Part shown: positions 7,001-64,000 of the stretch, in pieces
Layout of the letters: every line of letters begins with the position of its first letter
Numbering within the stretch: position 1 is the stretch's first letter
Source of the DNA: Daucus carota subsp. sativus
Lineage: Eukaryota; Streptophyta; Magnoliopsida; Apiales; Apiaceae
Reading direction: 5' to 3'
DNA length: 64,000 nucleotides
NCBI RefSeq assembly: GCF_001625215.2
Contig: NC_030383.2
Location: 4,228,779 to 4,292,778, forward strand
Position numbers and translations under genes: made by a program
The notes under the pieces: model-generated
Databases searched by the model: none
The model's input: only the letters and a program-made list of their open reading frames with translations
Told to the model about the DNA's origin: nothing

Positions 7001-7788
7001 TGTTTAAATACATAATATTATTAGCTCGCAAAATTAATGTCTCGCTGTTACGATACTTAATTCATTTTTTAACGAATATTTCTGTCCCGAATCATTTAAC
7101 GATTTTTATTTAAAACTGTAAATGCCATAATAATTAATTCTAATATTTTTCTGAATATTTCAAAATGTAATATTTATTTTAGCTAACCCGTAAGCCGTAA
7201 TGTCTACAATATTTCGGGTCATAATAAAACTATGTCTCTACCAATTTATTTACATAGCCAATATTTAAATTCTAATGGTACGAAAATAGATTCAATTAGC
7301 TAACCAATATAAACAAACCTCGTACTAGCCTGAAATGTTTTATGTACCAATATTTTATTAAATAATATTTTCAGAATTGTTTAAATAATAACTTCAACCG
7401 CATAAAATTAAATAACTAATTTATTTACGTACTTGAAATTTTGCGGTTGTTATAGAGATCAGGCAGAATTGTGCCTAATAAGCTCACTGGTCAGCAAAAC
7501 TGATCTAAAACTACATAAGAAGTTAACAAATGGCATCCTCAATCAGAGTTTCAGAGTTTAGGACATTAGATTCTAGGATTATCCATAAATAATGTATATA
7601 AAATATATTTTTTTATACATAATAAAAAGTTCGGTTATTTCGGTTTAAACCGAAATATTATATCAGAAATCGAATCGAACCGATATTTTTTTCGGTTTAA
7701 ACCGAATTAACCGAAATTTTGAAAAAAACAAAACCGAACCGAACCGTATAATGGTTTAACGGTTTCGGTTCGGTTTTGCTCACGCCTA
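4038..7788. mobile_element. non-autonomous hAT-type element, 8-bp TSD
   Basis: The element is flanked by perfect 8-bp repeats GAATTGGG (4030-4037 and 7789-7796), the size made by hAT transposases. TIRs are TAGGGGTGAGCA and TGCTCACGCCTA. Both subterminal regions are dense in CGGTT/AACCG motifs (the GGTTCGGTTCGGTT type), as in a widespread class of plant hAT MITEs. About 720 bp belong to the element itself. The rest is a 3-kb solo LTR (4420-7454) with its own 5-bp duplication. No transposase is present. Confidence 0.82.
4420..7454. mobile_element. solo LTR, about 3.0 kb, LTR retrotransposon
   Basis: A 3,035-bp unit starts TGTGACGACCCCAAATCC and ends TTGCGGTTGTTATA. It is flanked by the 5-bp repeat GAGAT at 4415-4419 and 7455-7459. 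There is no internal domain, which fits a solo LTR left by unequal recombination. The size and the TGTGACGACCCC start suggest a Ty3/gypsy family with very long LTRs, but with no pol sequence the family is inferred. It carries an internal short tandem repeat near 5205-5290. It is younger than the hAT element it interrupts. Confidence 0.72.
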
Positions 7789-11502: not shown

Positions 11503-12631
11503 GGTCTTAGACTCTTAGTGAGTCAAAGGGAGAGCTGGACTGTGATTGATGTTGTTGATAATCATCAACTCCTGATTTATGCGGGACAGTTCATGTTCTT
11601 CGTCATATCCTGGACACTTCTTCTCCCTTCTTTCACTCATTTTCTTTTCCTTTTCTTTTTTTTCTTCTCCGATTCCGTAATTCCAATTTAAATATTTTTT
11701 GATTTTGGATAAAAATTTAAATTAAAATTTTTCGGATATCATATCGAATTTTAAAAGTATTTACTTTAAAATAAGTAATGTACTAAAATTAGATAGATGT
11801 AGAGACCGTTTGAGTTATCTTAAAGAAAGTGACTTCCAGATTAAATTAAAAAAGTAGAGAACTTTAAGTTAATAAAGTGTTTGGAAAATAAATATCAGAT
11901 AGAATGAAAAACTAGTATTCGATTTTTTAAGAGTGTTTCTATTTATTTAAATAAATATGAAAAAAAGCAAGAGTCCGGCTCCCGCAAACCAACGGGCGTG
12001 CAGTATGAGTAAACAATATATATTTTTATTAGTTGAGTGAACAAAATCCCGATTATTTATATACTTCTATCGATTAAAACTAAATATCTTATTTTGACAT
12101 TTTTCACATGAGTTGATCAAATTTTAGTAGAGACTAAAATTTTAAAATATATATAATTTATATGAGGATATAATTTTTGAATTTCTAAAATTTTATAAGA
12201 TTGTGTTTGATAAAATGTATTTTATTTGATTAAATATATTTGAACACAAAAAGATTTAAGATTTAGCATTTGAAGCAAGAAACATGACAGCAACTAACAC
12301 AGGAAATCTAATAAGCAAATTATATTAGTTTCCTCCTATTTCTCAAGAATGAAAATTTTATTAGTTTCCTCCTATTTTTCAAGAATTTATTTTTAATAAA
12401 TAATATTAAGGATGAGATTTAGAGAAATATTAATATTATAGGTGAAAATCATGCTAATACAATATGCGTGACCTAAGTAATATAGCTCAAATGCTGTGCC
12501 TCTTGTTTCTTGAATTCACATGTAGAAACTAGAAACTACTAATAAATAATAATATTCCCCTCGATTATCTTCCTAACTAGTAGAGTAGTAGTAATATTTG
12601 GCCAAAATATGGCTAATTTTTCCATCACAGT
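11503..12631. other. intergenic between aldolase and RING gene
   Basis: The first ~150 bp next to 11502 should be the aldolase leader and promoter on the minus strand; it includes a pyrimidine-rich tract near 11620-11670. The remainder is AT-rich. Two copies of TTAGTTTCCTCCTATTT lie near 12327 and 12360. No gene is seen. Confidence 0.45.
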
Positions 12632-17497: not shown

Positions 17498-18419
17498 TGT
17501 TATTTTACATCAACTATAAGAAAGATTGTAGAAGGGGGGGTTAAATACAATCTTTTACAAAATAAAAGATTCAAGAACAAACACTTTAAAACAACAAAAC
17601 AGAAAAACACCAAGTATTAAAAATACGGGTGGATTGAATGATCCACCCGTGAGATCATCACTTGAACAGTTTTTAACTCTCAGATTTTCTCTCAAGTTTT
17701 TCGAACAAGTTCAACTGATGCTACTAACTTGGTTATATACTCCAAGTTTTATAAAGCTTTTTAACTAGAATACAAATTGCACTCTAATCTAAAAAATGTT
17801 GCACATCTTTGTCTTATGCATGCTTTCTGAGATGTCTTCATCTTTGACCATCATTTTGATTTGATCCAGATTGCATTGCATGAGATAAGAATGTTTCTGC
17901 TTCTTCTTTATTTTCCTAATCAGGCTTCCATGTCTATTTTAGTGTAATTCGATCCATGTGATTTGTCAGACTTAAGCTCTAGTCACTTTCAACTGCTATT
18001 TGCTTCATCAGTTGAAAGTTCTGGTTACTTTCAACTGCTCTTGACTTCATCAGTTGAAAGCTACTTCATCAGTTGAACGAATTACAGACTTCATCAGTTG
18101 AATGCTATTCCAGTCTCATCAGTTGAATTCCTTAGCATCATCAGTTGAATACTTTGTCTTCAGTTGAATGCTTGGTTTTCATCAGTTGAAACATGACCCA
18201 GTCTTCATCAGTTGAATAGTTACATCTCATCAGTTGAATATCCTTCACTTAGATAAAATTACATGGCATTGGATATTTACAATTAGCCATCCTATTCTAC
18301 CCATCCGTTGATAATTCCCAAATACAAGAAGTATAACAATTACAACTGAAATTTGATAAAGATTCTATATAAAACATGTTACAAAGTGTGTTATCATCAA
18401 AAATTATTGATTCCTAACA
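17498..18419 (-). mobile_element. solo LTR, Ty1/copia Sirevirus-like
   Basis: Read on the minus strand the unit starts TGTTAGGAATCAATAA and ends AAATAACA, with flanking 5-mers GATAT and AATAT (one mismatch). It includes GATTGTATTTAACCCCCCC, a motif I associate with Sirevirus-type LTRs. No internal region is attached, so it is a solo LTR of about 0.92 kb. It contains the CATCAGTTGAA array. The family call is an inference from sequence feel and has no pol domain to support it. Confidence 0.5.
17985..18245. repeat. degenerate CATCAGTTGAA tandem array
   Basis: About ten copies of CATCAGTTGAA or close variants recur every 20-30 bp, with some inverted copies (TTTCAACTG) at the start. The spacers differ in sequence while the 11-bp core stays constant. 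The array lies inside the solo LTR. Confidence 0.8.
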
Positions 18420-19094: not shown

Positions 19095-22000
19095 ATGACT
19101 TCAGGAGGAGCTTTGGATCCTCCCTCCAAAACCAAGTTCAGACGTTATCAAGTTTGGAAGGGTCACAATGTAAGTTCTCCATTTCTTTATTTTAGAAAAA
19201 TTATATATGAAATATATAGATATGTTTAATGCATAATCTCTTATTATAATTTACTCACATTTTTAAGGGTGGTTGAAATGTTTGATCCTTTTTTCTGATA
19301 ATAAGGATTCAATTAACTTGTAATTTGTTGGAAAACATGGATATTTCATAATGTTGTTAAAATATGGTTGTTAGACAATGTCATGAAAAAAATTTGAATA
19401 CTTTGTTGCTTTGCATGGCCATAAAGGCATAGCCATCTTCTCCTGTTTTTTATATGGTAATCTTGTGCATGAAAGTAATTTATTTAGTTTTTTGCTTTTT
19501 TGCACCCTCAAAAGGAGATTTTGGGATATGAAATCTTCATGCATCTTATCTTTCTTTTGGACCTTGTATCTAATTGTAATCTACACTTAGGTTATGTTTT
19601 TTCGTTTACTTTCATCTTTCTCATTAGTTTGATAAAAGACATACAATGTTGTCTCATAAAGATGTAGTGTATTGTAATACCTATCACCAACTAGTATGGA
19701 TTTCACATTTTTTAGGTTTAGAAATTATAAAAAATTCTAATATTATGAACATGAAGCCTATCATTGCAATAAATTTTTTGAATTAGTTAGTTTAAATAAC
19801 AATACAAGTATGGGTGTGGATTTTCATACTATATTCTTAATAAAGTTGTTAGCAAAACGACTAAGTGAACATCTCACATGCTTTCTCTAACACTTATGTA
19901 CTAAAAAAATTCTTCTTTGTCTTTCTTTATAACTAATGGCAGAAATTTTTCTGTGGTGGGAGGTTGATCTTTGGACCTGATGCATCATCTGTAGTTTTAT
20001 CTGCAACCTTGATAGCAACTCCAGCAGTAGCTTTTTGCATCAAAATGTTTAATCGAATATCTCGCACGGATCCTGCTTATGGGTACACTGTATTTATAGT
20101 GGGTACACTTCTCCTATTTTTGGTAGGTTAATGTTGGATATGAGTTAATTATTGTTGAAGACAACCAAATTATAGTTGATTTTAACTATGCGTCAGTTTT
20201 GCAGGTTTTAACCTTTCTCTTCATGACATCTGCAAGAAATCCTGGAATAGTACCAAGAAACACAAACCCTCTTGAGGTAGAGACTCCATCAGTTGCAAAT
20301 TCTATGGAGTGGATCAACGGTTCCATGAGTCTTAAAATTCCAAGAACCAGAGATGTTGTTATCAATGGCCACATAGTTAGAGTAAAGTATTGTGAAACTT
20401 GTTTGCTATTTCGTCCACCACGTGCTTCTCATTGCTCAATTTGCAACAATTGTGTCGAGAGGTTTGATCATCACTGTCCATGGGTGGGTCAATGTATCGG
20501 AGCTGTAAGTGACCTGCTTCAAAGTATTAATTCATCAACTAATTGTTTTAAAATGATAAGTTGATTCATTTTTGTTTATACTTTTTTTTTTATTTCCAAG
20601 TTCATATGCTCTCTAGATAATCATGATAGTCTACTTGACTAATTTAGTTAAATCTTCTATTTAGAATCATCGTCTCTAAATTTTATTTATTTACTACTAA
20701 TTACCAGTCTAGTAATATGCGATTTCTGGGAAGATTCTATTGCATGATTCTTTCAGCATTTGTTTTCAAAAGTCATATTCGGGGAGCAGAATTATTGTGC
20801 CATTTTGGTTAGGATACTCCAAATTGAAGGACATATGTATTTCAAGTAAATATATTGAAAATACATGCATCAAGTAGTCTTAAAGCAAAGAACCACTAGA
20901 GTTAATCTTGGACTTCAAAAGATTCCAAGTTACTTCGATATTTGTTTCAAACTGAAATGCATTACTTTTTCATTCTTTAATTTCATGTAGCTGCTAAATC
21001 AATCTCTATTAAAAATGAATTTTTTCAAAATCATAACATCATGTAGGTATATGAAGGACTTCATATTAAGACATCACTATAAAGTAGCAAGTAATAATTA
21101 AAATTCACAATGTTATAAAACGATACTTTTATAGCTTCATCCACTGTTGAAAGTTAAATAAGCTGCCTATGTTTAGATAAAAACATTAATTTCCACCAAA
21201 AAAAAACATGTTTTTCCAACTTTTTGTAGAGCTAAATGCACTAAAGTTATTTGTCTATCAGTCTTACTAATGAAAATTCACTATTAATATTGCATTCTTA
21301 ACTAAAATTATTTTATAATTTGCTTATCTTCTTGTGTGTGTTGTACTTGTACAAGACACAGACACACATATTTTTGTGTATTTATTTCTTCTGCATGATA
21401 TATGTTTGCTTATAGTTGGACTAAGTTTGCTTCACCGTTTATCTTGTTGCAGAGAAATTATCGATTTTACATCTTCTTCATATCCTTTTCAACAATATTG
21501 TGCATGTATGTTTTTGTGTTCTCATTGCTAAATCTTGTGGAACAACCAATAAGCATGTGGAAGGCCATGTCAAAAGATATGACATCAGTTGTTCTAGTAG
21601 TTTATTGCTTCGTAGCTGTATGGTTCGTTGGTGGGCTTAGTCTCTTCCATCTATATTTGATGAGCACAAACCAGGTTTCCTCCTCTTAAAGTCTAATTTG
21701 TACTCTCTTACTTAAAGTATCAAATATTATGATTTAGACATTGCACATATCATCTGGTAATACATTTTCTCTGTATTGGGTTTAAATCTTAGATGATGCC
21801 TTTTATTTGTATATTGAATGAAAAGAGTCGTCTCATTTCAAATATTGATATACAATTTGGCATGTTTATAAAAACAAAGATAGGTAAATAGAACCTCATT
21901 TTCTTGTTCAATCATATAAAAGAATATTGTGACATGTCTTGTTTCCTCTTTCATCCACAAGTTTTTCAGTTTAATTATATTTATGATATAATCATCTAAT

Positions 22001-25439: not shown

Positions 25440-26135
25440 GAGTTTTACTCCAATAGAAACCTCCTTATCCTAGAAACTAAAAACCAAACTGAAATATCAC
25501 TAAATCCTAAAGCAAATACCACTAAATTTTTAAACAACCCCATCTCCACCTCCATCTTCATCAAAACCACCTCCATCTTCACCAACCCCACCTCCACTAC
25601 CACCACCTCCGTCGTCGCCTCCTTCATAACCACTACCACCTCTATGCCGCCTACCCCCTCCATAACCACCACCTCCATCTCCATCTCCACCTCCACCTCC
25701 ATTATTTCTTTAACAACACAACCTCCACACCTCCATCTTCACCAGGCCCATCTTAATCGCCGCTTCAACCTCCTTCAGATTCGTTCATACTTCTTTCTCC
25801 ACCTCGACTCAACTTCAAAGGCGGAGCCGTCACTATTCCGGCAACGCTCCAACCCCCTATTTCAAGCCGCCCAAACCTCCGCTACAATCATCTTTCCTCC
25901 ATCTCCACCTTCACCTCCACCATCTCCACCACTATCACCACCATCTGAATCGAAAACATGAACAGATCTGGAGATTCTAAGCTGGTTAATATCTGGAGAT
26001 TGAGTTTTCACTAAATTCTGCAGCACAGATCACTAAATCCTAAAGAGATAATCACTAAATTGTACTGAGAATATCACTAACTTGTATTGGTTTCTAGTTT
26101 TTATTTTAAAATTGGTTTCTATTTGATCATGAGCC
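25440..26135. mobile_element. TA-tract element E1, non-autonomous MULE-like
   Basis: The left end is GAGTTTTACTCCAATAGAAAC; the right end is TTTGATCATGAGCC. Both abut TA dinucleotide tracts. Imperfect inverted repeats of about 45 bp include the paired AAACTAAAAACC and GGTTTCTAGTTTTTATTTTA segments. Beside the ends are ATCACTAAAT motifs near 25497, 25528, 26026, 26048 and 26072. The interior is C-rich with CCACCACCTCC runs, probably captured or eroded coding DNA. The right end matches the left end of the large transposase-bearing element at 53822, so that element is its likely helper. Confidence 0.7.
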
Positions 26136-27001: not shown

Positions 27002-30000
27002 ATGGAGCAAGAAACAGGCAAAAGCAAGAGGCTTTATCAGGTTTGGAGTGGGAGTAATGTAAGTTTCTATCTTGTATCGGATTTTTCAATGATTTTGTTT
27101 TTGTTTTGATGAAAAAGATTGTTATCATGTTACTTGAAATTGATTGTATGATGGTTCGGGGTGTTGATTATTATGGACTTATGGTTCAGATGCTGAGTAG
27201 AAATCATAATCATTAGCTTATTAGGATTTTGTGTTTTTCTCACTAAGCATGAAGTAGTGAGTTATATTTCAATTATAATCAGGATTTTATAGGCTAAAAT
27301 TAATCTTGAGCTACTTTCTTGATTAAGAACTTCGAAACAATAGACTTTGAATTATGGAGGAGATGTTATAAACTTGTGTTGGGTGGAGATGAAGGTGAGA
27401 ATGGTGTTTAAAAGAGATGAAAGTGAAAGAGTATGATAGTTTGAAGGGCGGAGCCACTAACGTGAGGATAAATTTTTATCTGCAGACCAAAATAAAATTG
27501 AAACAGTAATAAATGATTAAGAACAGAGAATGTACTGATAAAATGCATGTGCAAGAACACCATGAAATTATGAAAGATAGATCAGTGAAAAGAACAGATT
27601 GAGGAATTGTAACTTGGGATCTGGCATCATATGACTTATTTTTTAAAATCAAAGTGGGGGATGTTGCCCCCTCATGTCCCTCCATGTGTTCGCATATAGA
27701 TATTTATAATTCCTTTTTTTTTTAATATTTATTTTGTGAAAGTATATGAGGGGAGAAGGAATGATCAACTGAGCAATTTGTTAATAAATTGGGAGGAAAC
27801 TCTGGTTTGAACTTGTGGAATGGAACGGTGAGAGCAATGTATATTACGCATAAATGCCCATAAAACTGTTCAAATTTCATTTCTTTCCCACCCTATTCTA
27901 CTGCAACCAACCAAAAGCAAAGGGTAATTCCTCCATCTTACTCTTTATTTGATGCAAAAAGTGAAATGTTTGCTGTGGATATCTGGTAGTAGGGAAGTTA
28001 AAGCCTATTACATGTTGCTAAGTAATGTTAATCATTTATGATAAGCAGTTCTGCATTCATATAAAGCCATCTTATATTTCTCAGTAGTTATTTGATTAGT
28101 GTATAGTGTTTCATTTGCCAAAAGTTTCCACTATTCATTTACTGAACTTAAATTTTTATTTCTCAAATGTTATCAGAAATTCTTCTGTGGGGGGAGATTG
28201 ATCTTTGGCCCAGACGTGGGCTCTTTGTTTTTCACAGTACTACTAATTGCAGTGCCTGCACTAGTATTTTGTGTAAAAGTTTATGTTGATAAAGTCAGAC
28301 ACCATGCTAATCATTGGTACCCTATCCTCATTATTGGAGCTGGTCTCACCGTGCTGGTAAGTATTGTTTAGAACTGGTTCCCTGTACTTGTATGTTTCCA
28401 GATTGTCCACAGACTCTTTTACAAATTCATATTGTACATTAAGGCACAATTATCATCTATCTCTTCCTGCCACATGACTGCAACTGCATCCGGTGTACTG
28501 GCTGTACATATGTAACTAACCACATTAGCCTTCACTTTGAGTTATGCTTCCAATTGCAAAGAAAGACCTATAACCTACTGCTCCTCCCTAATAAATAAGG
28601 GTACCAATAACAGAGTACAGAAATTGACATTGTGAAAAATGTCATGAGGTCACATGACTATTACATATTGAACACCTCTAGTAACCTCTTCAGTCCAACA
28701 TGACATGTCTGATTGAAGATTAAGTAGATGACAAACTTTATTGGGTAGGTGACCATGTACGAGGCATTCTATGTACACAGATTACAGATATCAAGTTAAG
28801 TTTATTTTCCTGAATAGATATTAAATTTTTTATATGCTAAAATAGATATGAAGATATTCCGATCACCAATGTAGTGCATAAAATAAACTTTTAGCTTGAT
28901 GTTGACACTTTACGTATTAAATGAATCCTCAGACTGCTCTTGTCTTGATTATTCGCATAATAATGTTAAATGAATCAAGTGTAGCATTGGAAACATTCAT
29001 TGGTATCTCAAGTGTCACTTTCTTAATATCCTCTGCAGGATATGATATTTCTCTTCATAACATCTAGCAGAGATCCTGGAATAGTTCCAAGGAGCTCTAA
29101 TCCTCCTGAGTCGGATGATAATTATGATACGATGAATACACCTTCTATGGAGTGGGTCAACGGTAGAACACCTCACCTTAAACTACCTCGAACAAAGGAT
29201 GTACTTGTGAATGGGCATGCAATTAAAGTTAAATACTGTGATACATGCATGCTATATCGACCTCCCCGTGCTTCTCATTGCTCAATTTGCAACAACTGTG
29301 TACAGAGATTCGATCATCACTGTCCATGGGTTGGTCAGTGCATTGGGATAGTAAGTTATTATTCGCTTTGTTCTTGAGAATTTTGCACTGCTTTATAGTA
29401 TCTGCACTACTGAAGCTAAAGCTTGTCAATCTAGTATAGAACTTATCTTCTATTACCATCATAGCATTTGAAATGAAATTTATTTTAATGGAAATTTATA
29501 TATATATATATCAGCTGTAGCTTGACCCCTCATTCTATGAAGTAAAATTTGCAAGATTTGATAATGTAACAAACTTTGTTTGTTTGTTTGTGAAGTTTTG
29601 TTATTATTATTTTTTTTAACAATTAGCTCTTTTTTCTTGATCTGGTTTCAGCGTAACTATCGGTTCTTCTACTTGTTCACATCAACGTCAACCATCTTGT
29701 GCATATTTGTATTTACCTGTTCATGGGTACGGCTCTATGAGCAGCACCATGGAAGGCTCTTAAAGTCAATTGCAAATGATATAATATCAGATATCCTCAT
29801 AGTGTACTGCTTTGTCGCTGTTTGGTTTGTTGGTGGCCTCACAATTTTTCATTTCTATCTGATTTGCACGAATCAGGTGAATTTTCTTCACAAAAATAAT
29901 AGAAGTGTATGTATGAGTACTTAAAATGTTTTGTCTGTTCTAGTCATGCACGTCTCTTTATCATTTGTTAGCATATTAATAAATTATAACCTTAATGAAT

Positions 30001-50147: not shown

Positions 50148-50720
50148 GGCAAGTGATCAAATGGAAACTAATGTTATTCTAGAAACTAGAAACCATTCCT
50201 TGAATCACCGTTTATAACCACATACATCACTAGTTTCCATGCTGTTAATCACTATTTTATAAAGTATATTCATCAATTTTTATTTTTAATAATTGAGAAA
50301 ATTTACGTATAATTGACATTGGTAGTCGATTATTGATGATCAATTATAGTTGTAGAAGGTCTATGATGGTAACAAATGACGGGATGAGGTGTGTGGTCAT
50401 GATAGATAGTCATTAGTAGTGACAAGTTATGATGACAAATGGTAATAGGCAAATCATGGTTGTAAGTGAAGGCGGAAGTAGTGGAAGGGGTTGATAATGA
50501 TGTCGGGAGTTTCATCAATGTAGTATGATTGAAGATGATGATCATATACGTTGTATATATGTGTATTTATATATCTATATTTGTCAGATTTCGCATATAT
50601 AAATTAGTGATTTCTGATATACAAATGAGTGATTTTTATAGTTGAAAATAGTGATGAAAAACTGCTCAGGGACGAGTTTTTAGTTCTTAGGCTAATTTAG
50701 TTTCTAGTGGAGTAGGCCCC
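50148..50720. mobile_element. TA-tract element E2, non-autonomous
   Basis: The left end is GGCAAGTGATCAAATGGAAAC; the right end is CTAGTGGAGTAGGCCCC. Both lie against (TA)n. The two ends have the same polarity signatures as the other family members: GATCAAAT on one side, and CTACTCCA (complement of TGGAGTAG) on the other. ATCACT/AGTGAT motifs cluster near both ends (50226, 50250, 50605, 50629, 50650). The interior is low-complexity and shows no gene. Confidence 0.65.
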
Positions 50721-51421: not shown

Positions 51422-52178
51422 TATACTATAATAAGCCAACATGGGTATAATTTGTAGTCCAAGGTTTTAGTTATATTTTTTGGTTTGGTACTGTCCTTTT
51501 GGCACTACAAGTCTACAAATGTGGAGTCTATTATTTTTTGGTTTGATACTCTCCTTTTGGTACTACAAGTCTACAAAGTGGAGTCTATTAGTATTATATT
51601 GTTAAACAGTTTCAAATACTAAAAACACTCATAACAATTCATTATCATATAATATTTTATTAAAAAATTATAATGATGTTATAAATAAAATTTTAAATAT
51701 ATAATTTTAAATATCTTTTTTTAACAAGAACCTTCATATAACTTTAACATGTTCTATTTCAATATAAACACGAACCATTACATAATTCTTTCTAACTCTA
51801 ATCTCGAAAGTTATTGTTGTCAAAAAAACCAAGATTACAAAATTACGTTGAAATTCGATTGTTTAGATTACTGGATATTTCAAAGGTATTACACGATCGG
51901 CTATGTTCGGAAAAGATTTGAATTTTCTGATTTTTTTTTATTTTTAAATCTACGTGTACTAAATTCAGATTAAATGTACTAAAATCCTGACACACACATA
52001 TATATTAGGGTTTGTCCAATTTCAAGTAATCGGGAGATATAGTTAGTTGAATAATATAATTTAATTAAAATTCAATCCATTAATACTAAAATACTAATAA
52101 AATAATGTTAGAATTTAAATTATAAATAATAAATTACGAACTATATACCGCCCGTGCGAAGCACGGGTTAAAGGCTAG
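51422..52178 (+). mobile_element. non-autonomous Helitron, copy 2, head to tail
   Basis: It follows copy 1 without spacer and shares its sequence throughout, starting TATACTATAATAAGCC (the first few bases of a full 5' end are missing) and ending GGCTAG before T. The 3' hairpin is CCCGTGCGAAGCACGGG. Relative to copy 1 it has a tandem duplication of about 70 bp near 51480-51590 (TTTTTTGGTTTGGTACTGTC type unit) and other differences, so the copies are not recent twins. Confidence 0.8.
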
Positions 52179-52194
52179 TATATATATAGAGAGA

Positions 52195-53267
52195 GAGTCA
52201 TGCTCAACTACAAACCATTTTAAAATAAAAACTAAAAACCACTGGCCCAGCCCACATGTAGAACATCCCAGCCCACCTAATGAAACCCAACCCATTACTT
52301 TACATCAAGCAACCTGTTGCGCGCTCAATTAAAACAACTCCGATACATACGCCTATACATACAGTTAGCACTAAACACAAACCCACTTTCTTTTAATTCT
52401 TCATCTTTTTCGATTTCAAGATGTAACTACAGCGTGTTATTGGTGTTTCAAGCAAAAAAATTCTATTTTGAAGTCTGATATTCTCGTTTACAGGTGATTT
52501 TGGTTTTAAAACACAACAAATCTGAGAATCTGCTCTGGAGTTCACGAATATCACTAATTAATAAAGCGAATATCACTAATTTGTAAAGCGAATATCACTA
52601 ATTTGCACAACATAAATCATCGATTTCTATAACTATATCAACAACCACCCCACCTTTATCTCTTCCACCAGCTTCATCTCGACCTCTGCTAGTCTGCTAC
52701 ACCACCTCCACCTCGACTTCTACCACCACCACCTTCACCTCCGCGCGCTATCTCAGCCCCTACCTCTGCCATACATCCACCTCGACCTCCACCTACGCCA
52801 TCTCAACCCCACCCCCACATCCTCCATGCCCCCGCCCCCTCCATATCCACCACCTCCAGCTTCACCACCGTCACCACCACCGGAATCAACAAACAAGAAC
52901 AGATCTGGAAGTTTTCATCAAGTTCTTGAGACTATAACAAATATCACTAATTTCTCAAGCGGATATCACTAAAATGTACAGTATTTGGTGATGGCGGAGA
53001 GATGGCGAGGATATATAGTGATGACGGGGAGAGGAAGGGACAGAGTTGGTGAAGATGATGGTGAAATCAGGACGGCGAGGTAGGTGGTAGTGTTGGCCTG
53101 GGTATGACAGCAGAGATGGAACGAGTGGAGAGATCTGGGGTAGATGGGGATGGTTGGTTTTGCTATGCTGGGTTATAAGTGTAGGAGAGCGTCTTTAGTA
53201 ATTAAAAGAGTTTCAGTAGTGGTTTTTAGTTTTTATTTTAAGATTAGTTTGTATTTGATCATGAGCC
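52195..53267. mobile_element. TA-tract element E3, non-autonomous
   Basis: Left GAGTCATGCTCAACTACAAAC; right TTTGTATTTGATCATGAGCC; (TA)n on both sides. Terminal inverted repeats of about 50 bp share AAAATAAAAACTAAAAACCA with the right end inverted. A triple GAATATCACTAATT-type repeat lies near 52548-52610 and a double one near 52930-52975. The interior 52630-52920 is rich in CCACCTCCACC, resembling the interior of E1 at 25.5-25.9 kb, so the two probably share an ancestor. Confidence 0.72.
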
Positions 53268-53283: not shown

Positions 53284-53773
53284 GAGTCCTACTCCAATAC
53301 AAACCAAGCCAAAATACAAACTAAAAACTACTCACTCATCTACATATATATACCTTATATATACACATACAATCTATATATATCATCACAATCATCCAAT
53401 ATATACTACCAAAGCCGCCACAACCATTAAATAACATCAATATATTCGATCATCAAAAATAGTGAATCACCAGATTCTGTCCAGCATCTGTTCTCTGTTC
53501 TCTTTATTTCACTAATTTCTGAAGTAGTAATCACTAATTTCTAAAGCAGTAATCACTAATTTCTGAAACGAATATCACTAAAATATATAGCAGCGGCCAG
53601 CGAATTTATTAGCAAATTTGCCGACTAGTGGGGCTGAGTGGAGGGGTGGCAGGGTGGTGGTCGGGATCGAGATATGTGGTTGGATGATGGGTCATGCAAA
53701 TGGGGTGCGTAGATAGTGTAAAATAGGAGGTTCTTAGTTTGTATTTTAAGAATGGTTTGTATTTGATCACTAG

Positions 53774-53775
<2 letters not shown>
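53284..53775. mobile_element. TA-tract element E4, non-autonomous
   Basis: Left GAGTCCTACTCCAATACAAAC; right TTTGTATTTGATCACTAGCC; (TA)n on both sides. The inverted repeats share AAAATACAAACTAA. Four ATCACTAATTTCT-type repeats sit at 53510-53580. It is separated from E3 and from the large element only by TA tracts. 492 bp, no coding capacity. Confidence 0.75.

Positions 53776-53821
<46 letters not shown>
53776..53821. repeat. (TA)n tract between E4 and the large element
   Basis: An uninterrupted TA microsatellite of about 22 units, the longest in the window. It forms the only spacer between two members of the same transposon family. Confidence 0.95.
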
Positions 53822-53823
<2 letters not shown>

Positions 53824-54152
53824 CTTTTGATCAAATACATTCTTTTTCTTAAATACAAACTGTGAACTAATCTCAGCCCTTGATTATTTGAATTTATTTT
53901 ACAATCTCAGCCGTTAGATCTAGAAAATAAAAAATAACAAAAAGTCAAAGATTTAGTCTAATTAATCTCATAATTGAATTCAGTTTCTCTCACTTCCATG
54001 CTTATTGTCTCTCTGCTCTTTCTCTCTCTACAATTTTCACTGCGGCGAGTGCGTTTACTGTGGCGAGTGTTTCTGTGCTATCTCTACAGCAACTTAGGTG
54101 ATCAATTCGGTTCTGTGTTGTCGGTCTTAGTGTGTGAATTTGGACGTTGAAG

Positions 54153-57100
54153 ATGATTATAACTGATTTGACTAAAATCGCTGATAATCAAGGTAATTTT
54201 TTATTGATTTCAGCTTTGTATATGCTTGTAGGTGAATTTGTATGTAATTTGTAGTATTACTTGTGTATATGATTCTATTTTGATGAGGTTGAGTATGAAT
54301 ATTAAGCTGATTAGCAGTTTATGTCGTACGAGTTAGTTTTCTGAATATTTTTGCTGAAAATTGAGTAGTTGTAGTGATAGGTATGATGTTTGGGGAGATA
54401 GTAGAGTTATATAAACAATAAATCACAGTTTTGCTCAGGTATGATCACTGAAAACAGATCAGTTGCCTTCACGCATGTTGTTTGTAGGATAGTAGAGTTA
54501 TCTAATAATAAATCACAGTTTTTTAAGTTGATGATCACCTAAACATACCAGTTGCAGTGATGAATATAATGTTTGAGAGGTATTATAGTCATAAAATGAA
54601 TAAATCATAGTTTTTTAAAAGCTGATCATTGAAACAGAGAATGTCGAGTGATGAATTTGTGTTTTTGCAGCTATGTAATTTAGATTTTATAATAAACTGA
54701 TTATATAAAGAGAAGAATTAATGTGTATTTTTTGTGAACATGTGTTTTACAGGATCTGTTTGTGGTGATTCGTCTCGGATCAGTAGCTCTGTTACAGATG
54801 ATGTGAGCGTAGATAATAGCTCAAATGAGAGTGAAGGTGTTGCATGCTCTAGAATATCTCCTGGTGGTAATAGCTATTATGTACCTGTTGTTGATGCTGT
54901 TTTTATTCCTTATGCTGATCAGAGATTTGAAAGCCTAGATAAATGTTTTAAGTTTTATAAGGAGTATGGTAGATATAGTGGTTTTGATGTTCGAAAAGGA
55001 TGTGATAAGAAGGATGAACATGGTACTACTATTTTGAAGCATTTTGTATGTAGTAGAGAAGGGTTTAATGAGTTGTTTCGGGGTAAAGTTGTGAAAGGGC
55101 GAAGGACTGTTTCTCGGAGGTGTGGGTGCAAAGCAAGAATAGTTGTGAAGTTAGTGCAGTTGAATAGTTATGCTGTGTTTAATTTTGTGGAGGAACATAA
55201 TCATCCTTTAGTTGAAGAAAGTTGTAGGCAGTTTTTGAAAGTAAATAGGGAGATGACTATGGGTTTGAGAAGTATTGTTTTTGATGCGGCAAAAGTGAAT
55301 ATTGGTTGCAGCAAGAGTTTTAGCTTGGCAAAGGAAATGTACGGTGGTTATTCAAATGTAGGTGCTACCTTGCGTGACTTTAGAAATTTTAATCGAGATT
55401 TAAAAGAATATGTAGGGGAGAAAGATGGGCAGATGATCATAGACAAGTTTAAGGTGATGCAGGAGACTTCATCGTCGTTTTATTATGCTTATGATGTTGA
55501 TTCTGCCGGCCATTTGACAAAGCTTTTTTGGGCTGATCCTGTTGGTCGTAAAAATTTTGAAATATTTGGTGATGCGGTATCATTTGATGCGACGTTTGAT
55601 ACTAATAAGTAAGGATATGTTTGTTTTTGTGTTTGTGTTTTTTGTATATGGTTGGTTCTTGGCTTTAACAGAAATCAGTGAATCACTAATTTTGAAAGTT
55701 GTTTTTTATGCTTCAGATATAATATGGTTTTCGCGCCATTCACTAGTGTGGACAAACACGACAGATGTGTTACATTTGCAGCGTGTCTTTTATCACATGA
55801 AAGTGTTAGTGATTATAGTTGGGCTTTTGAACAATTGGTGAAGGCGATGGGAAGAAATCCGGTGATTATTATTACTGACCAATGCCCTGCCATGAAGGTA
55901 GCAGTTCCTGCAGTGTTTTCTGACGCTAATGGTTTGGTGCCTACAAAGCATAGACTATGTATGTGGCACATTATGAACAAATTTCCGATAAAGGTGTAGT
56001 ATTCAAAATTTATTTGTTTTTGTAGTTTATATGTAGATAATATTTAATAGTTGTAATGTTCAACTCTGTTTAATTGTGTTTTGCAGCTTGGTAATCGTTT
56101 GTGCAAGGAGACAGATTTTATGGAAAAATTGAAGAAGTTTATTTGGTCTTCGATTTTAGAGATTGATGAATTTGAGAAAGGTTGGGAGGAAGTTATAAAG
56201 GAGTTCAAATTAGAGGGGAACAAGTGGTTGCAGGATATGTACGAAATTAGGAGTTCCTGGATTCCAGCATACTTCAGGAATGATCCAATGTTTGGTTTGT
56301 TGAGAACCACGTCAAGGTCAGAAAGTGAGAATTTCTTTTTCTCACAGTTTCACAGGCAAGGCGACAGTTTATGTGAATTTTGGATTCGATATCAGAGTGC
56401 GATGGACAGGCAGAGGAATGAAAGAAAGAGGTTGGATAATGAATCAAATTCTAGCGTTCCTACATCAGTGTCTACATGGTTCATTGAAGATGATGCTGCA
56501 AAACTGTTCACACGCTCAATTTTCTATAAGGTTCAGGAGGAGATCATTGCGTCTTGTTTAGATATGCAGATCAAACGTATGAGTGATGAGGTTGATGGAG
56601 TTACTAATTTTGAGATTAGGGATGTTAAAGTGCAAGATAAACTGTTTAAGGTAATAATTTAAGTCTTTTCTTTAATGTTTTAGTGATCTTTTTTATATAT
56701 GTTCTTTTTATGTAGTAGAAAGTAGGTCTAAATGACATCCCCCCCTAGATGTCACCACCCACCACTTAGTTGTCATCACCCCCCCAGATAATAGTTTAGT
56801 TAATTTTATTGATATGGTAAAAAACTATCAGTGATTTAGAGCTCCTGTAATAATGGATTTTTCTTTTAGGGATAGTGGTTTTTGATTAACTGACTTAATG
56901 ATAGTAGGCCTAAATGACATCCCCCCCCCCTAGATGTCACCACCCACCCCTTAGTTGTCATCCTCCCCCCCCCCCCCCCCCAGATTATAGTTTGCTGAAT
57001 TTTAGTGATATGGTAGAGCTATCAATGATTTAGAGTTCATGTAATATAATGGATTTTTCCTGTGAGGATAGTGTTTTTTGATTAATTGAATGAGGCCTAA

Positions 57101-57818
57101 ATGACATCCCACCCCCCCTAGATGTCACCACCCACCCCTTAGTTGTCATCAGCCCACCCGTTGGTATTAGTTTGCTTAATTTTAGTAATTTTAGTCATTT
57201 TTGATTAAATGAATTAATGATATCTTCTGTTTTTTGCAGGTTTCCGTGAGTAGAAATCATGTAGTTTGCTCTTGCAAGAAATTTGTTATGTGTGGTATTG
57301 TGTGTAGGCACTCATTTTGTGGGTTGAAACACATCGGAGTTACTAAGTTTCCTAGGAGTCTTGTTTTGAATCGCTGGATGAAAATCGCTGAATCTGGGAC
57401 TTCATTAAGTTCTGTTTCTAATGACTATTTCAAGATGGAGCATGTATCCATGAAGTTGACAGATATTTGGTATGATTTTCGCCAAGTGGTAGACAAAGCT
57501 GGTGTGCAAACAGATAGGCTTGATTATGTTCACAAGGTTATAAAACAGTTGAATACTGATCTTGACAGTCAAGGGGTGGTTGTTGATTTTACAAAGAGGG
57601 ATCACATGGCTGCTATGGTTGGGGAAGAGCCTGAAGGAGATTTGACCGTTCTTGCACCGAATGTTTGTAAGAACAAGGGGAATTTTTTTAAGAGACTGAT
57701 TAGCGAAAGGGAGAAAGCTGTGATCAAATCAAAGAAAAGAATACGAAAATGCAAGGAATGTAGCGCAGTTACTCATGATTTGAGAACTTGTCCAAATAGG
57801 AAGAAAGGCGATTCATGA
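54153..57818 (+). CDS. FAR1-type MULE transposase, five exons, 771 aa
   Basis: Exons 54153-54192, 54753-55608, 55717-55993, 56087-56650 and 57240-57818 join in frame with GT-AG borders. Residues ~70-165 form a FAR1-type zinc finger (FVCS...RRCGCKARI...EEHNHPL). The transposase core has the expected acidic triad: Asp292 (SFDATFDTNKYN), Asp353 (IIITDQCPAM) and Glu470 (TTSRSESENF), with CMWHIMNKFP between. A SWIM finger C-x-C...C-x-H spans residues 589-603. A C-terminal zinc knuckle C-x2-C-x4-H-x4-C starts near residue 750. The protein should bind the element's ends and cut and move it; the plant regulators FHY3/FAR1 descend from this class. The first 40-bp exon is chosen because its phase fits exactly, and a start at 54734 within the intron is the alternative. 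Intron 4 carries a C-rich minisatellite. Confidence 0.85.
56722..57170. repeat. C-rich minisatellite in transposase intron 4
   Basis: A unit of about 180-190 bp is repeated, starting at about 56728, 56908 and 57094 (the last copy is partial). Each begins CTAAATGACATCCC, then a C run, CTAGATGTCACCACCCACC, TTAGTTGTCATC and another C run. The C runs range from about 6 to about 17 bases, so they are likely to vary between copies. A vaguely similar stretch (CCCTATATGTCATCACCCAT) occurs at 23583. Confidence 0.82.
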
Positions 57819-58461
57819 TTAATTTTTTATATCTGTTTAGTTTGAAGAACAATGTAAATTGAAATACAATTTTAAATAGTTGATATGGAACTACAATTTT
57901 TTCATTAAACAGTTTTGTGATGAGTTTTTTTTTAGTTGGTAAATTTTTCTGCTATTTTTTTGTAATTCGATGAAAAATTTGAAAGTGATGATGCAAGTAT
58001 ATTAGTGATTTTTATCTTGCTATTTTAGTAATACATGAGTTATATAGTAGTGATTTTGTTGTATTATTTTAGTGATGCATACATGATATAATAGTGATTT
58101 AAGGGTTATTTTTTTGGCTTTTGTATAAAACAGTGCATCTCTAGTGATAACCTGGAAGTCCATTAAACTTTACAAACACTATCATTGTAAATGTGTTGAT
58201 ATAAGCAATATTTGAAATAGAGCACTGAAATAGTTGAATAACATCCAGAAAAAGATTCATTACTCATAAATTGATCCATTCACCAGAAATATTACATAAT
58301 TGTCATAGTTATAAAGTCATTGATTCACCACAACCAACACATAATTGTCAAAATGATTTAGAAAGACAGATACTGAAAGATGATGACAAGAATAAGTTTC
58401 TTGCAAAAAACATAATCTTGCGATATAAGTTCTGAATTGATTTGGAGACTACTAATCAACT

Positions 58462-61400
58462 CTAGTTCTTTTTTGCTGCCTCTTCAAAAGTGGATGACAA
58501 ATTCTTTGCAAATCTAACCATCTTCTTTTCTTTGGGACCTGTGTCAGTGCGCCTTGATGTTGGTGATGAGTTCAGTATATTCACGAGCTTTTTCTGTGCA
58601 ACTTTGTTGAACAAATCAGTTGCTTCTTTGAGGATCGAAGTTCTTTTCTCATTGAGGGGGAAAGACAATATAGCACTGTTGTACTTGACCCTGAGCTTTG
58701 TGATCTGGCTTTCTTGGAGACTCTAAACAAAATAAATTTAGATGGTATTTAGTAGATGAATCAAGAGATTTAATATATCACTCAACAATTTGTAGTAAAC
58801 CTGACTAAAAGGGTGAGTGTGCTTACTTCATTTTTAAATCCAGTTTCCCAGTTTTTTGGATCACCCTTATAGGTCTCCATGTGCCGCATCAAAAAAATTC
58901 CACAATCTCTATGATTCTCCTTTGTCTGCCAGGGCATCTTCATCAAGGTGGGTTTCATGTTATGCAGCTTCTTGGTCAAAGTTGACAACCCTTTTGCTTG
59001 CAAGTATTTTATGAAGTTGGTATGCTGTAAAATTTATAGGTTATACAGTATGAGAAGAATATGATTAATCTGTGATTAACAGGAGCCATCTTTAGTGATT
59101 TAAATTGAAGGTTTTAATAGTTCTTACCAACATATCTGGTACCTCTCCATAGCAAATCTCCTCATGCTCATCCCTCTTTATATTGTCGATGATTTCATAT
59201 GTTGTTTTTTTCAGGTGATAAGTGATCAAGTAGAAATGATCATACTTATGAATTGGGAAGAAAACCTGGAAAGAGCATAAAATAAATATATTTAACATAT
59301 TATTGTGGATGGTTATTTATGAAGGTACTGTATTTTTATACCATTTCCAAATCATCTATTTTGTTGCGTCCTGCTTTGGTGAGAATGTCATCCATGTTTT
59401 TTGAAAAAACTGAAGAACGTTGGTGAATAGTCTTCTTCTCATCCAAGCTAGGAAACTGCAGTGAAAACATGGTAAGTTAGAATACAGATTTTATCGTCTC
59501 CTTTTATGAAGAAGCAAAGACAGATATTTTAGAAATATTTAATTTATTTTTACCAAACTCCCAATAGTGCAGAAGAGGCGCAATGGTGATTCGTCTGCTT
59601 TGTAATTCTCCTTGTTTAAAATGATGGCCCACATATCAATGACAGAGTAGGATACAGATTTTTTCAGTTTCAATGTCTGCATATACTCTCTTATGCACTC
59701 AAAACCATTATACAAGAATAATGGCTCCCTGTAAAAACCGTAAAATGATAAGAATTTATTTTTTCATAAACAAGTGTCATGGTAAAAGTAAATTTACTTA
59801 CAGCGGGTCTTTGTTCTGAATCAAGAACCTCCACAGTCCTAAATCTTCATTTGTGCATTTGGCTGTGATATCGATTCCTCTTTGAATGTAGGGTGATTTT
59901 GCATATCGACCCATCTTGATGTTTCTGGTACTCTTCAATCTTTTTGGTAGTTCAGGAGTTTGGTCTTGAGAATTTGGTGTCCCCTCGATTTCTTGTTGGT
60001 TGATATCTTCACAGACTTGTTGAATGATATCAGTCTCTATCCCAAGTGAAAATGATGGAACATATGAATATTCCTTGAGAAGTTTCTGAGACAAATGATC
60101 ATTGGTAAGTTGCATGGTCTGGACGTATTGTACAAGATCTATGTCAGCAGTGGCATGTATTGTGAGGTCAAAATCCTCATCAATGTCATGGGTTGGGGTA
60201 TTTGGTGTAGATTGATATTCAGTCTCTCTTTGTGGAGATTGCAGACAAACATCTTCTGTAACTTTGTACCCAAACACATCTTGAATCACTTTTTGAATGG
60301 TTTGCAGGGTGTAGCTTTCGGGATTCTTTTGTAACTCTATTTTGAGGTCTGTGTCGAAAAGCAATTTCTCTTCAATCAAGTTCTGTGCTCTTAATCTCAG
60401 TGATTCAGAAGGGTCCTGAAAGTAATAGGAAAGTTAACAAGGTGATTAAAGTGCACATTACATAGAAATTGTAATAATGACTTTTAGAAATATAGATGGG
60501 TGATATAGTATCTAGTGATTTTTATAGTCACTATTTGTGAAATATAGATTCAAATTATAGTGATTGTATATATAATGATTAATAGTCATTATTGAAGTAA
60601 TGTAATACCTCATTTTCAGTAGCATTATGTGGGTTGTCAGTGTCCATTATATCTACTGGAGGGACCTCTGCGGCAGCATCATTGTTGTTTTCATCGCCTT
60701 GGTTGATGTTCCAATCCCAGTCATTGTCTGTTGTTGGTTGTTGGTAATGATTCCAGTCATCCCAGTCGGTCTATGTTAAACATATGAATATTTAGTGTCG
60801 ATATTAAAAATAGATGTGTGATATTACTGATAAGAAAATAGATGTAATACTAGTGATATAAGAGTAGTATATGTAATACCTTGTTTGGGGAATTATTATT
60901 AACAGGTTGGCTGTCCTGTGAAAGAACTTCTCTTAATGGTCGCAAAACACAGCCAATTCCAAAAACACCATCGATAACCTCAATTCTTTGCCTCTCCTTG
61001 AGCTTCTGTTCTGTCCATCCTTTGTAGGAAGGGAAATGTCTTTCAACTAGCTTTATTCCTTTGTGCCTCACTCGATCAACATAAAATAACTAGATAAAAT
61101 AAAGTATTATTAGTTGTTTAAGGAAGGAATATAGTAGACAATATATAAGATAAAAAAAAAGTGACTTACAGTTAGAAATATCAGTGATCCGGTGAAGAAT
61201 GTTGATGACGTGCGGTTCCAACTCTCTGTACCAGCAACAAGGCGATTTATGAGATACTCAGCCCAGTTGTAGTAACAGCAGTTGTCGAGATCATCATCAA
61301 ATCTGAGAAGCTGCTTTTCAATATAAGAATTGGTTGGTGTTTCAATTAGAATGTTGGACATCACAATGAGGAAATTCAATTTGAAGTTCTCTGTGACCTC

Positions 61401-63451
61401 TGGTCGTTTGAAGTTCTCCGTGTCCTTTTTTCCATTCATGATTTCAACAATCATTGAAACTGTGATGTTGTTCGTGCTAAACTGAGCTAGCCAATTGTCA
61501 ATTCTTTCTTTGTGTTTTTCGTGTGAACCCAACAAGATGGTTTGTCCCTCGTGTGGCAGTCCAAGAACATCGAAAACATCTTCTTCAACAATGTTGACAT
61601 CCTTATTCTTCAGTTTCAGAGTGAGACTGTTGTGTTCAAAGATTTGAAAGACATTATATGCTAGCTTTGAAGGGATCATCACCAGATCAAAATCAAGGAG
61701 GGCTTCAAATCCAGCGTCTTTGACCCATTCCTTCTGTTCTTCTAACAATGAATCAATCATTTGACTTAACAGCCTTGGTGAATTCCTTAATTTTATCTTA
61801 GATTTTGTTTTGTTTATATGTTGGGCACCTTGAACTTCCTGTGAGGAAGTATAATAGTTGAATCAGGGATATTTTCTATGATTAATCTAAAGTGCACAAG
61901 TTGTTTAACAAAAACAATAAATCTTTAGTGATTTGTTACCTCAATCGGATACCCCTTCCTGATTTGGAATTTTAAAATTGGCTTCTTCTTGTTCAGTGGG
62001 TCATCTGCATCTTGATTATCCTCCTGTTTGATTAGAAAGAAAGAGATAAGCAAATCACTAATTTATTCAATATGCATCACTGAAAGCTAGGAAAAAGAAT
62101 CACTAATATACTTCACTATTATTCTTACATTCTGGTTTGCCTTTCTCTTCCATTTTGTGAATTTTGGTTTAATTGGTTGGTCCTCTTCTTCTACAATCAT
62201 GTCTTCTGCATTTTGAGAATCTGAGTTGGACTCATTGTCTTGTTGATATAGATCTTTCAAACAAAAATCTTCATCATCAAGTTCCTGTTAATTGTACCAA
62301 ACAAAGTAAACATTAGTAATCATCTTTTAAAGATTTATGTAACTATAAAAATATATATCAATTTTACAACATCAGTAGTAGGATTTTCTGGAGGTCTTTT
62401 TGCAGATGTCTTGATTCTAGTTTTTGATTTCATAAAAATTGTAGGAGCACTTTGCTGAAAATCATCATCACTGTTTGCCATTATAGTGTCTTGATCAGGT
62501 GCTGGTTGGAGTCTTGGACTTCTCCGAGGTGTTGATGTGCAACCTGCAAAAAGAGAGTATGGTTTATAGAGGTACAGAGTGAGTTTAAGCAGGGGTATAC
62601 AGAGAGGTATATACACAATGATGTCAAATGCAGTTGACAACCGTCTCAGTTTATCTATGGGCAATCACTAAGACAACCAACAGCTAAAAACTACAATCTG
62701 TTTGTAAATATCAATAAAATACAGTTCTCAAAATCATAATGTTACATCTATAACAACATTGTACAAACTACAGTCTCCAAATTACTTTTTGCAGTAAAAC
62801 GACAACAACTACAGCCAATCACGAACACAGCAACAGAGCAATAACAAACAATACTCTCAGTTTGTCTGTTAAAACTACTTTTTGTAATACTGCAGCATCT
62901 ATTTATAACTAAACTACTTCACAGTACTTTTTGCAATCACCAACACAGTAACAGAGCAAAACCCTAAGTAAAACAATGGAGTCAAATCACTAGTTTTGTA
63001 ATACTGCAGCATCTATTTATAACTAAACTACTTCACAGTACTTTTTGCAATCACCAACACAGTAACAGAGCAAAACCCTAAGTAAAACAATGGAGTCAAA
63101 TCACTAGTTTTCTAGGTTTATACCGGCAACATAGTTCAAGTTCAAGAAAATCGGTATAAGAAAAATAGAAAAACAGTATAACACAATCCAGATAGTAACA
63201 TTATTTTATGCAAAAATCAGTGTAAATTAGTATAACAAAATCAAATCAGTATAACACAATCCAGATAGTAACATTATTTTATGCAAAAATCAGTGTAAAT
63301 CAGTATAACAAAATTAGTATACGAAAATCAGTCTAAACTAGTATAACACAATCACTAAATCATAATTTATGCAAAAATAGTAACATTATAAGAAAAATCC
63401 AGAAAAAAATCTAAAACCCTAAGTTTACATACCTTTTCCAGTTTTATCCAT
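58462..63451 (-). CDS. transposon-borne Ulp1-like cysteine protease, 13 exons, 991 aa
   Basis: Exons on the minus strand: 63451-63433, 62543-62368, 62284-62129, 62023-61940, 61838-61170, 61089-60880, 60770-60609, 60415-59802, 59728-59554, 59455-59342, 59265-59128, 59024-58827, 58722-58462. All junctions are GT-AG and the frame stays open for 991 residues. The C-terminal third is a C48 (Ulp1/SENP) peptidase: His803 (KYDHFYLI), Asp820 (YEIIDN, 17 residues later as in yeast Ulp1), Gln872 and Cys880 (HRDCGIFL). Residues ~170-420 form a domain common in plant transposon Ulp1 genes (FDLVMIPSKLAYNVF, EEDVFDVLGLP). The middle is acidic, Asn/Gln-rich and probably disordered. It may cleave SUMO or a related modifier. 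Its role in transposition is unknown. It ends 640 bp from the convergent transposase. Confidence 0.85.
62884..63111. repeat. 114-bp tandem duplication in Ulp1 intron 1
   Basis: The unit beginning GTAATACTGCAGCATCTATT starts at 62884 and at 62998, with the two copies virtually identical. Each ends in ATCACTAGTTTT, so the duplication also adds one ATCACT motif. It lies in the first intron of the protease gene. The near identity suggests a recent event. Confidence 0.9.
63175..63320. repeat. 73-bp tandem duplication in Ulp1 intron 1
   Basis: The unit beginning AGTATAACACAATCCAGATA starts at 63175 and 63248, nearly identical, with a further partial copy of the AGTATAACA(C/A)AAT theme up to about 63350. 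It lies in the first intron of the protease gene. Confidence 0.88.
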
Positions 63452-64000
63452 AATTTTTGCTTGAATAGTCAAAAACTCTGTAATTAGTGGATCCTTTGAG
63501 ATGTGGAGCTGCAAATCACCAACAATAACAAAATATTATAAAAAAAAACCCTAGAAATCACAAAATCAGTAACATGCAAAAGTTAATAGACATTTATTCT
63601 AAATATTATAGTTGATTTTAAGTAATAGCGAAGATTAACATACATTTTTTCGAGTTCGAAGTGATTTTTTGCACTGTAGAAGATGAGCAGCTTCAGATCA
63701 CCAGTTTCTTCACTTCGATTTCTTGTAATTACTTTAGTATCGACGTATTTGAAGCGTTTTTTAGCACTGTTACAAGCACAAATTATAGATTTGTGCTAGA
63801 CTGAGTGTTGGTATCAGGTGATTTTAGTGGGAGAGAAGATGGTGGAATGCGTGTGTAATTAGTGCCGCTGTAACTGAATTGATTGTAACTGTATGTATTG
63901 TCGGTAAGAATTTAAATTTTTAGTGGATGGGCAGTTGATAATTTGTTTGGGCCGATCACAAAACTAGTGGACTTGGGCCTGTGGTTCGCAGTTTGTATTT
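63452..64000. other. promoter side of the Ulp1 gene, right end of the element
   Basis: This stretch should contain the leader and promoter of the protease gene (minus strand) and the subterminal region of the element. The final 14 bases belong to the right inverted repeat. No other gene is seen. Confidence 0.5.

Follow-up and report, generated by a model that had tools for sequence, protein, structure and literature searches.

A Jittery-like MULE of Daucus carota with a Ulp1-type gene, TA-tract insertion and a dispersed TAGTGAT motif: a possible anti-silencing system

Described MULEs with TA targets, Ulp1-type genes or VANC factors

Both TA-targeting MULEs (MuTAnT, SaTar, Ac-mMITE) and Ulp1 genes in Jittery-like MULEs are already published. 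In Medicago truncatula, AutoMuTAnT has a Jittery-like transposase in five exons and inserts into TA microsatellites; the element described here, D, shares with MuTAnT/AutoMuTAnT the five-exon Jittery-like transposase, the TA-microsatellite sites and the short non-autonomous relatives, but AutoMuTAnT measures 4873 bp, has a single ORF and GGGG tips, and the accessible part of its description mentions no Ulp1 gene (PMC4486113). The SaTar arrays of guayule, rice, sorghum and citrus are, like the array containing D, joined end to end via TA tracts without nesting, and the autonomous gSaTar- and rSaTar-MULEs lie within them as D lies within its own array; unlike D, guayule AgS-MULE1 has 5.3 kb and 400-bp TIRs and is called a defective autonomous element, at least in the sections available (PMC5907723). 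The main text of that paper contains no occurrence of "ULP", "protease" or "FAR1". In pineapple, the TA-flanked copies of Ac-mMITEs are reported, in the available excerpt, to be less methylated and to have less siRNA than related copies flanked by TSDs (PMC8449440).

The grapevine Jittery-like MULEs carry, like D, a ULP gene downstream of the transposase (PMC2528002), and Jittery-like MULEs with ULP are known from melon (van Leeuwen 2007, as cited in PMC2528002); for these elements the passages at hand do not mention TA-tract targeting, and "microsatellite" appears 0 times (PMC2528002). In the Kaonashi elements (KI/KIU) of Arabidopsis the ULP domain is opposite to the transposase, as in D (PMC2528002, PMC13317346), and a 2026 review designates as KIUs the VANC genes with a Ulp1 domain (PMC13317346). 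However Kaonashi elements, as presented there, are non-TIR, encode mudrA and have three genes, whereas D has two genes, one of them for a FAR1 transposase, and ends that are inverted repeats as far as visible; judged on non-TIR ends and a mudrA-type transposase, D would not be a Kaonashi element.

VANC21 binds YAGTATTAY, which lies in tandem repeats in the noncoding parts of VANDAL elements, and brings about a loss of methylation (PMC5735166, PMC10398659), and VANC6 targets carry AGTTGTCC/AGTTGTAC, also in tandem repeats of noncoding DNA (PMC5735166). As these partly available sources describe them, the VANDAL/VANC systems resemble the D family by a short motif repeated in the noncoding DNA of the family, but the VANDAL ends are degenerate, unlike the inverted-repeat ends of D as far as visible (PMC5735166, PMC10398659). 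Besides, mobile-domain ORFs, often antisense, are listed in MUDR groups (PMC6446971, table and excerpts), and Ikeda and others speculated that mobile-domain proteins captured by MULEs act in anti-silencing (PMC5418596, as excerpted).

The preliminary description of the locus had suggested that this may be a poorly described lineage. For the traits taken singly this is not supported: a Ulp1 gene with a Jittery-like transposase and TA targeting are each published. The three traits together were not found described, as far as the consulted portions of the sources go. Among the matches listed (titles and abstract starts, with few subscription journals) we recognised no element with a FAR1 transposase, Ulp1 and TA targeting, and no such dispersed motif in a TIR-MULE. 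D joins a FAR1-type transposase, a Ulp1 partner and TA-tract targeting in one apparently intact element. What is new is the array E–C–D with its relatives A and B, plus the dispersed TAGTGAT of D and the short elements.

Element D, its ends and its two genes

The window, that is the whole stretch of 64,000 nucleotides analysed from Daucus carota subsp. sativus, contains five related elements (Table 1). MULE D begins at 53822 and is apparently intact and near-complete, the window stopping about 28 bp short of its predicted right end. It is the third module of an array that reads E, 16 bp of TA, C, (TA)23 (46 bp), D. TA tracts adjoin 5/5 elements on their visible sides, the right tract of B being imperfect and the left tract of E being followed by GA. 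The copies are TA-flanked and joined, not nested, as in TA-targeting MULEs; and the TA-tract insertion announced for D is supported by its left end, which follows (TA)23.

Table 1. Positions of the features of D and of its relatives in the window
Feature	Position	Strand	Basis
Element A, non-autonomous, 696 bp, flanked by TA tracts (12 and 24 bp)	25440..26135	.	shared ends
Element A motif array	26029-26079		
Element B, non-autonomous, 573 bp, preceded by 18-bp TA tract	50148..50720	.	shared ends
Element E, non-autonomous, 1073 bp	52195..53267	.	shared ends
Element E motif arrays	52550-52600, 52943-52971		
Element C, non-autonomous, 492 bp, flanked by TA tracts (16 and 46 bp)	53284..53775	.	shared ends
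Element C 22-bp ATCACTA array	53530-53580		
Target tract (TA)23, joint between C and D	53776..53821	.	sequence
D left end, type 1, imperfect terminal inverted repeat of ~47 bp	53822..53868	+	alignment of ten element ends
FAR1-MULE transposase gene, 771 aa, 5 exons	54153..57818	+	rebuilt gene model, Pfam
Transposase exons	54153-54192, 54753-55608, 55717-55993, 56087-56650, 57240-57818	+	splice model
Tandem repeats of ~180-196 bp, transposase gene intron 4	56718..57159	+	sequence
Five motif units between the genes, 22-23 bp spacing, four exact TAGTGAT and one TAGTAAT	58003..58098	-	
Protease protein gene, 991 aa, 13 exons, predicted C-terminal C48 (Ulp1) domain	58462..63451	-	gene model, Pfam, SENP2 alignment
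Protease exons 1-7	63451-63433, 62543-62368, 62284-62129, 62023-61940, 61838-61170, 61089-60880, 60770-60609	-	splice model
Protease exons 8-13	60415-59802, 59728-59554, 59455-59342, 59265-59128, 59024-58827, 58722-58462	-	splice model
Two exact motif copies 45 bp apart, protease gene intron	60513..60564	-	
Protease exon 5, marginal DUF1985/plant mobile domain similarity	61170..61838	-	Pfam, below cut-offs
Motif array ATCACTA, ATCACTG, ATCACTA at 22 and 23 bp, protease gene intron	62054..62105	+	
Perfect 114-bp tandem duplication, protease gene intron 1, one ATCACTA per unit	62880..63107	+	sequence
Right inverted repeat of D, inner part, 16/17 identical to 53851-53867	63984..64000	-	alignment; outer ~28 bp past window

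Two types of ends are found in the family. The type-1 end, GGCNNNTGATCAAATA, is clear in all five elements, with 0 mismatches in A, C and E, 1 in B and 2 in D; the type-2 end, GAGTYYTACTCCAATA, is clear in A and C (0 mismatches), whereas in B it is degenerate, with 4, and in E the end is ambiguous, differing by 4 from either pattern. In the ten-end alignment each of the four type-2 ends has one base less ahead of the inner repeat, and on the four ends measured this repeat lies 28 bp from the type-2 tip (C, E) and 29 bp from the type-1 tip (C, D). The final 17 bases of the window, once reverse-complemented, reproduce the left subterminal repeat of D at 16/17 positions: the right terminus that the preliminary description placed near the edge thus gives signs of its presence. 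From the offset of the inner repeat the right end of D is predicted near 64028, for a total of ~10.2 kb, and its tip is expected to be a type-2 end, e.g. GGAGTAGGACTC, then (TA)n, near 64017-64028. As a separate matter, the literature matches to element-end sequences were judged, from their listing, to be chance strings.

That D is a transposon is near certain. FAR1-related and ULP host genes do exist in plants, according to the accessible parts of two papers (PMC2528002, PMC6117577), and one could imagine that an ordinary FRS (FAR1-related) gene and an ordinary ULP gene became adjacent here by chance; however, both genes lie, to the extent visible in the window, between inverted ends that match, a TA tract adjoins the left one, and ends of this kind recur in four short relatives, so that we hold this coincidence for extremely improbable.

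The two genes of D converge, the transposase on the + strand and the protease protein on the - strand, with both frames and the catalytic residues intact. All 16 introns (4 + 12) are GT-AG, and both joined frames are free of internal stops. Our rebuilt models retain the apparently intact two-gene MULE initially proposed, with its 5 + 13 uninterrupted exons and its genes facing each other; the catalytic residues then named for the two proteins were all located. The first exon of each gene—13 codons for the transposase, 6 for the protease protein—has splice signals as its sole support, with no homology; an unspliced ATG at 54740 offers an alternative start to the transposase, and an internal ATG is present in exon 2 of the protease protein gene.

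The FAR1 type attributed to the transposase is found again by Pfam (FAR1, E 1.2e-18; MULE, PF10551, E 6e-21). Its D-D-E residues, D292, D353 and E470, each stand in the expected context with a spacing of 61/117; that of JITA is given as 62/110 in the available text (PMC9569675). The label FAR1/SWIM initially used holds for its FAR1 part, but the SWIM-like motif falls under the Pfam cut-off (E 0.072) and was not listed in the full-length scan. The terminal zinc knuckle also announced, CX2CX4HX4C, can be read by eye close to the C-terminus. Jittery-like MULEs are defined by a FAR1 N-terminal part and a SWIM or CCHC C-terminal part (PMC6446971, from its table); the transposase of D appears to present this combination, with a strong FAR1, a sub-cut-off SWIM and the CCHC knuckle seen by eye. 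D would be a Jittery-like (FAR1) plant MULE of the cut-and-paste kind, specialised for TA-microsatellite targets and potentially autonomous. A sequence search of the PDB with the transposase found no match, and its core found no relative in the viral contigs and prokaryote genomes searched.

For the protein of the second gene, the preliminary description had spoken of a Ulp1-like protease, and its membership of peptidase C48 (Ulp1) is borne out by comparison of the sequences: the 289-aa C-terminal stretch matches Peptidase C48 (PF02902) with E 6.7e-06 and 26.5 bits for a cut-off of 20.7, a match absent from the Pfam listing when the protein is scanned full length. The active-site residues H803, D820, Q872 and C880 are all present and fall on H, D, Q and C in the alignment with SENP2 (sentrin-specific protease 2; E 0.0067). 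This gene might be a captured host SUMO-protease gene, a passenger without part in transposition: ULP recurs among MULEs that are only distantly related, oriented either way, as well as in CACTA elements, for which the authors evoke, in the accessible pages, repeated capture or frequent loss (PMC2528002). The 991-aa frame and the four active-site residues are nevertheless intact over 13 exons, which one would not expect of a passenger free of selection, save after a very recent capture, and we regard the passenger status as rather unlikely.

Exon 5 of the protease protein gene deserves a separate mention. Its match to DUF1985 has E values of 0.0044-0.043 and 14-17 bits (best 17.4), for a cut-off of 35.1, and the plant mobile domain is matched more weakly on the same stretch (E 0.072). 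In the same query two unrelated families reach E 0.012; and among nine controls, one reversed and eight shuffled, none matched DUF1985, the best other family reaching E 0.022, so that the match is little above noise. An AlphaFold2 single-sequence model of exon 5 alone was uninformative (pLDDT 34), and the viral contigs searched with this exon held no relative. The DUF1985 similarity is therefore a marginal, below-threshold hint; it matters because Arabidopsis VANC proteins carry DUF1985, as the available part of PMC5735166 indicates, whereas the protein of D, known here from sequence, has a sub-cut-off match.

The TAGTGAT motif in D and its relatives

The dispersed TAGTGAT and the five-element family were absent from the preliminary description. 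K-mers were counted in the noncoding DNA of D as the discovery set, and the four short elements, their ends trimmed by 25 bp, served as the check, their 7-mer counts being already visible at the discovery stage. TAGTGAT/ATCACTA occurs 20 times in the 4862 bp of D noncoding DNA, for a mean of 1.48 and a maximum of 5 in 200 dinucleotide shuffles. With 1 copy in 5292 bp, against a synonymous-shuffle expectation of 0.89, the coding DNA of D is merely without enrichment. The short elements hold 17 copies in 2634 bp (A 4, B 4, E 6, C 3) versus 0.78 expected from the remaining window (15 in 50712 bp), a Poisson probability of ~2e-17 which is overstated: A, C and E share repeat units, so that these held-out elements are not fully independent. 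The enrichment as such is real.

Its score needs to be put in context. TAGTGAT has a z of 11.7 in D noncoding DNA, where the highest z of any 7-mer across 60 dinucleotide shuffles is 8.8; a C-run from the intron-4 repeats ranks above it. Among 81 overlapping equal-length host segments, three (one region, with two AACCGAA clusters) have a top 7-mer with z >11.7, and the next best, with z 10.6, comes from a CAACTGA array at ~18.0-18.2 kb, mostly with 19-26 bp spacing; at 17988-18240 the window thereby has a second array of roughly 22 bp (TCATCAGTTGAA). As other loci of the window reach scores like that of D, enriched 7-mers are not rare, and we moved the weight to the dispersal, the 22-bp phase and the held-out relatives. 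It is by these that D is set apart: exact copies in 10/19 separate noncoding segments over 9 kb, a 22-bp phase, and recurrence in the relatives.

Same-orientation exact pairs no more than 60 bp apart number 19 in the five elements, at 22 bp (10 pairs), 44 bp (5), 45 bp (3) and 50 bp (1), with at least one pair at 22 bp in each element. In D alone, 2 pairs are at 22 bp (P 0.00075 by 20000 random placements), but exact pairs are most often 45 bp apart (3 pairs; P 0.0002 for any spacing). When one mismatch is allowed 22 bp becomes the commonest spacing in D noncoding DNA (5, ahead of 23 and 50 at 4 each) as well as among the short elements (13), while it stays outside the eight first-listed spacings for D coding DNA and for the rest of the window. 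A short motif in tandem arrays, in the noncoding DNA of family copies, is the layout of the VANC systems, and the D family shows it too.

Such a layout could also be inherited: descent and local duplication would have carried a 22-bp tandem repeat of the ancestor through the family, leaving a minisatellite without present function. Alignable stretches at the 22-bp units, shared by A, C and E, go in this direction, as do the two D copies that lie in the perfect 114-bp duplication. On the other hand, in the array near 58 kb, between the genes, the 7-mer is exact in 4/5 units while the linkers diverged; outside the ends, D and the short elements have only short weak matches (best E 0.008); and the exact copies are scattered over those 10/19 noncoding segments. 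We find mere inheritance of the repeat improbable, though a serious candidate.

Two other properties of the motif were considered. The splicing branch point, which TAGTGAT might evoke since it often continues CTAA, was rejected: copies point either way, some are found between the genes or within the short elements, and the five sense copies in protease introns lie ~68-142 nt from the acceptor. As to polarity, TAGTGAT is on the + strand in 13/14 exact copies of D noncoding DNA left of 62000 and ATCACTA in 6/6 copies right of it; B departs from this arrangement, so no conclusion is drawn from it.

A possible anti-silencing system

We propose, as a suggestive and unproven reading by analogy to which we give slightly less than an even chance, that the D family carries a VANC/KIU-like anti-silencing system in a FAR1-type MULE. 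With its FAR1 and zinc-finger parts the transposase would bind the two ends, which differ slightly, its D-D-E site would cut, and the element would insert into (TA)n, by which copies come to stack end to end. The same helper could also move the short copies A, B, C and E, to judge by their shared ends. The second protein, with an N-terminal half weakly resembling DUF1985/plant mobile domain and a C-terminal Ulp1 protease, would be an anti-silencing factor of the VANC/KIU sort: it would recognise the family-wide TAGTGAT, whose 22-bp spacing is maintained in noncoding DNA, and silencing marks would be removed at the motif, perhaps by cutting SUMO from silencing proteins. The motif as a protein-binding site, the second protein as its reader and anti-silencing as the outcome are all three inferred from sequence.

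Subterminal repeats of other plant DNA transposons serve the assembly of the transposition complex. TAGTGAT might likewise be the site on which the transposase, or a helper, builds such a complex, the Ulp1 protein having another job, e.g. trimming SUMO from the transposase. The motif is common to autonomous and short copies, the type-1 tips of C and B include TAGTGAT and AGTGAT respectively, and the two terminal segments of D have one-mismatch copies (1 and 6 respectively); but no exact copy falls in these segments, of 331 bp on the left and 549 bp on the right, the exact copies lying in the introns and between the genes across 54.4-63.4 kb, and the tips of A, D and E are without the motif. 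A role in complex assembly seems to us about as improbable as the inherited repeat, hence less credible than the anti-silencing function.

Returning to the latter, anti-silencing might be shared by a TIR-bearing, FAR1-type, TA-targeting lineage and not be confined to the VANDAL MULEs with their degenerate ends; we think this extension unlikely, albeit conceivable. Within it, the guidance of a DUF1985/PMD-like SUMO-protease fusion by a 22-bp-phased TAGTGAT, placed in the introns and in the short dependants, is to be taken with equal reserve; autonomous and non-autonomous copies would then escape silencing together. In any case the presence of a cis-motif makes the role of Ulp1-type genes in MULEs directly testable. 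Finally, TAGTGAT and the VANC motifs have AGT in common, which could be chance.

Repeated words outside the elements

Nearly half (7/15) of the background copies of ATCACTA, the 7-mer enriched in the noncoding DNA of the two-gene MULE and its short relatives, fall within 1952-6027. Among these seven the 22-bp spacing was looked for and not found, and a search of the same region with the element-end patterns gave no match. The TCATCAGTTGAA-like words form an array restricted to about 250 bp, spaced mostly by 19-26 bp, with linkers unlike each other; they are perhaps binding sites of an unrelated element. The AACCGAA clusters are possibly foldback-like repeats.

Features listed by position in the window
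Feature	Positions	Basis
AACCGAA repeats, two clusters, both orientations	4059-4202; 7630-7775	
HpcH/HpaI aldolase frame, 336 aa, uninterrupted	10504-11514	PF03328, 2e-54
About ten TCATCAGTTGAA-like words	17988-18240	
Two DHHC palmitoyltransferase-like frames	20127-20564; 29027-29377	by eye
CCCGTGCGAAGCACGGG hairpin, seven bases, CTAG-T	52151-52179	sequence read

Genes and a Helitron-like end

The aldolase frame is probably a host gene. Two genes in 20.1-31.1 kb have frames that read like DHHC palmitoyltransferases, and element A, a short non-autonomous MULE relative, sits between these frames. The hairpin-bearing segment looks like a plant Helitron 3' end; the TA tract holding element E, another short relative, directly adjoins it.
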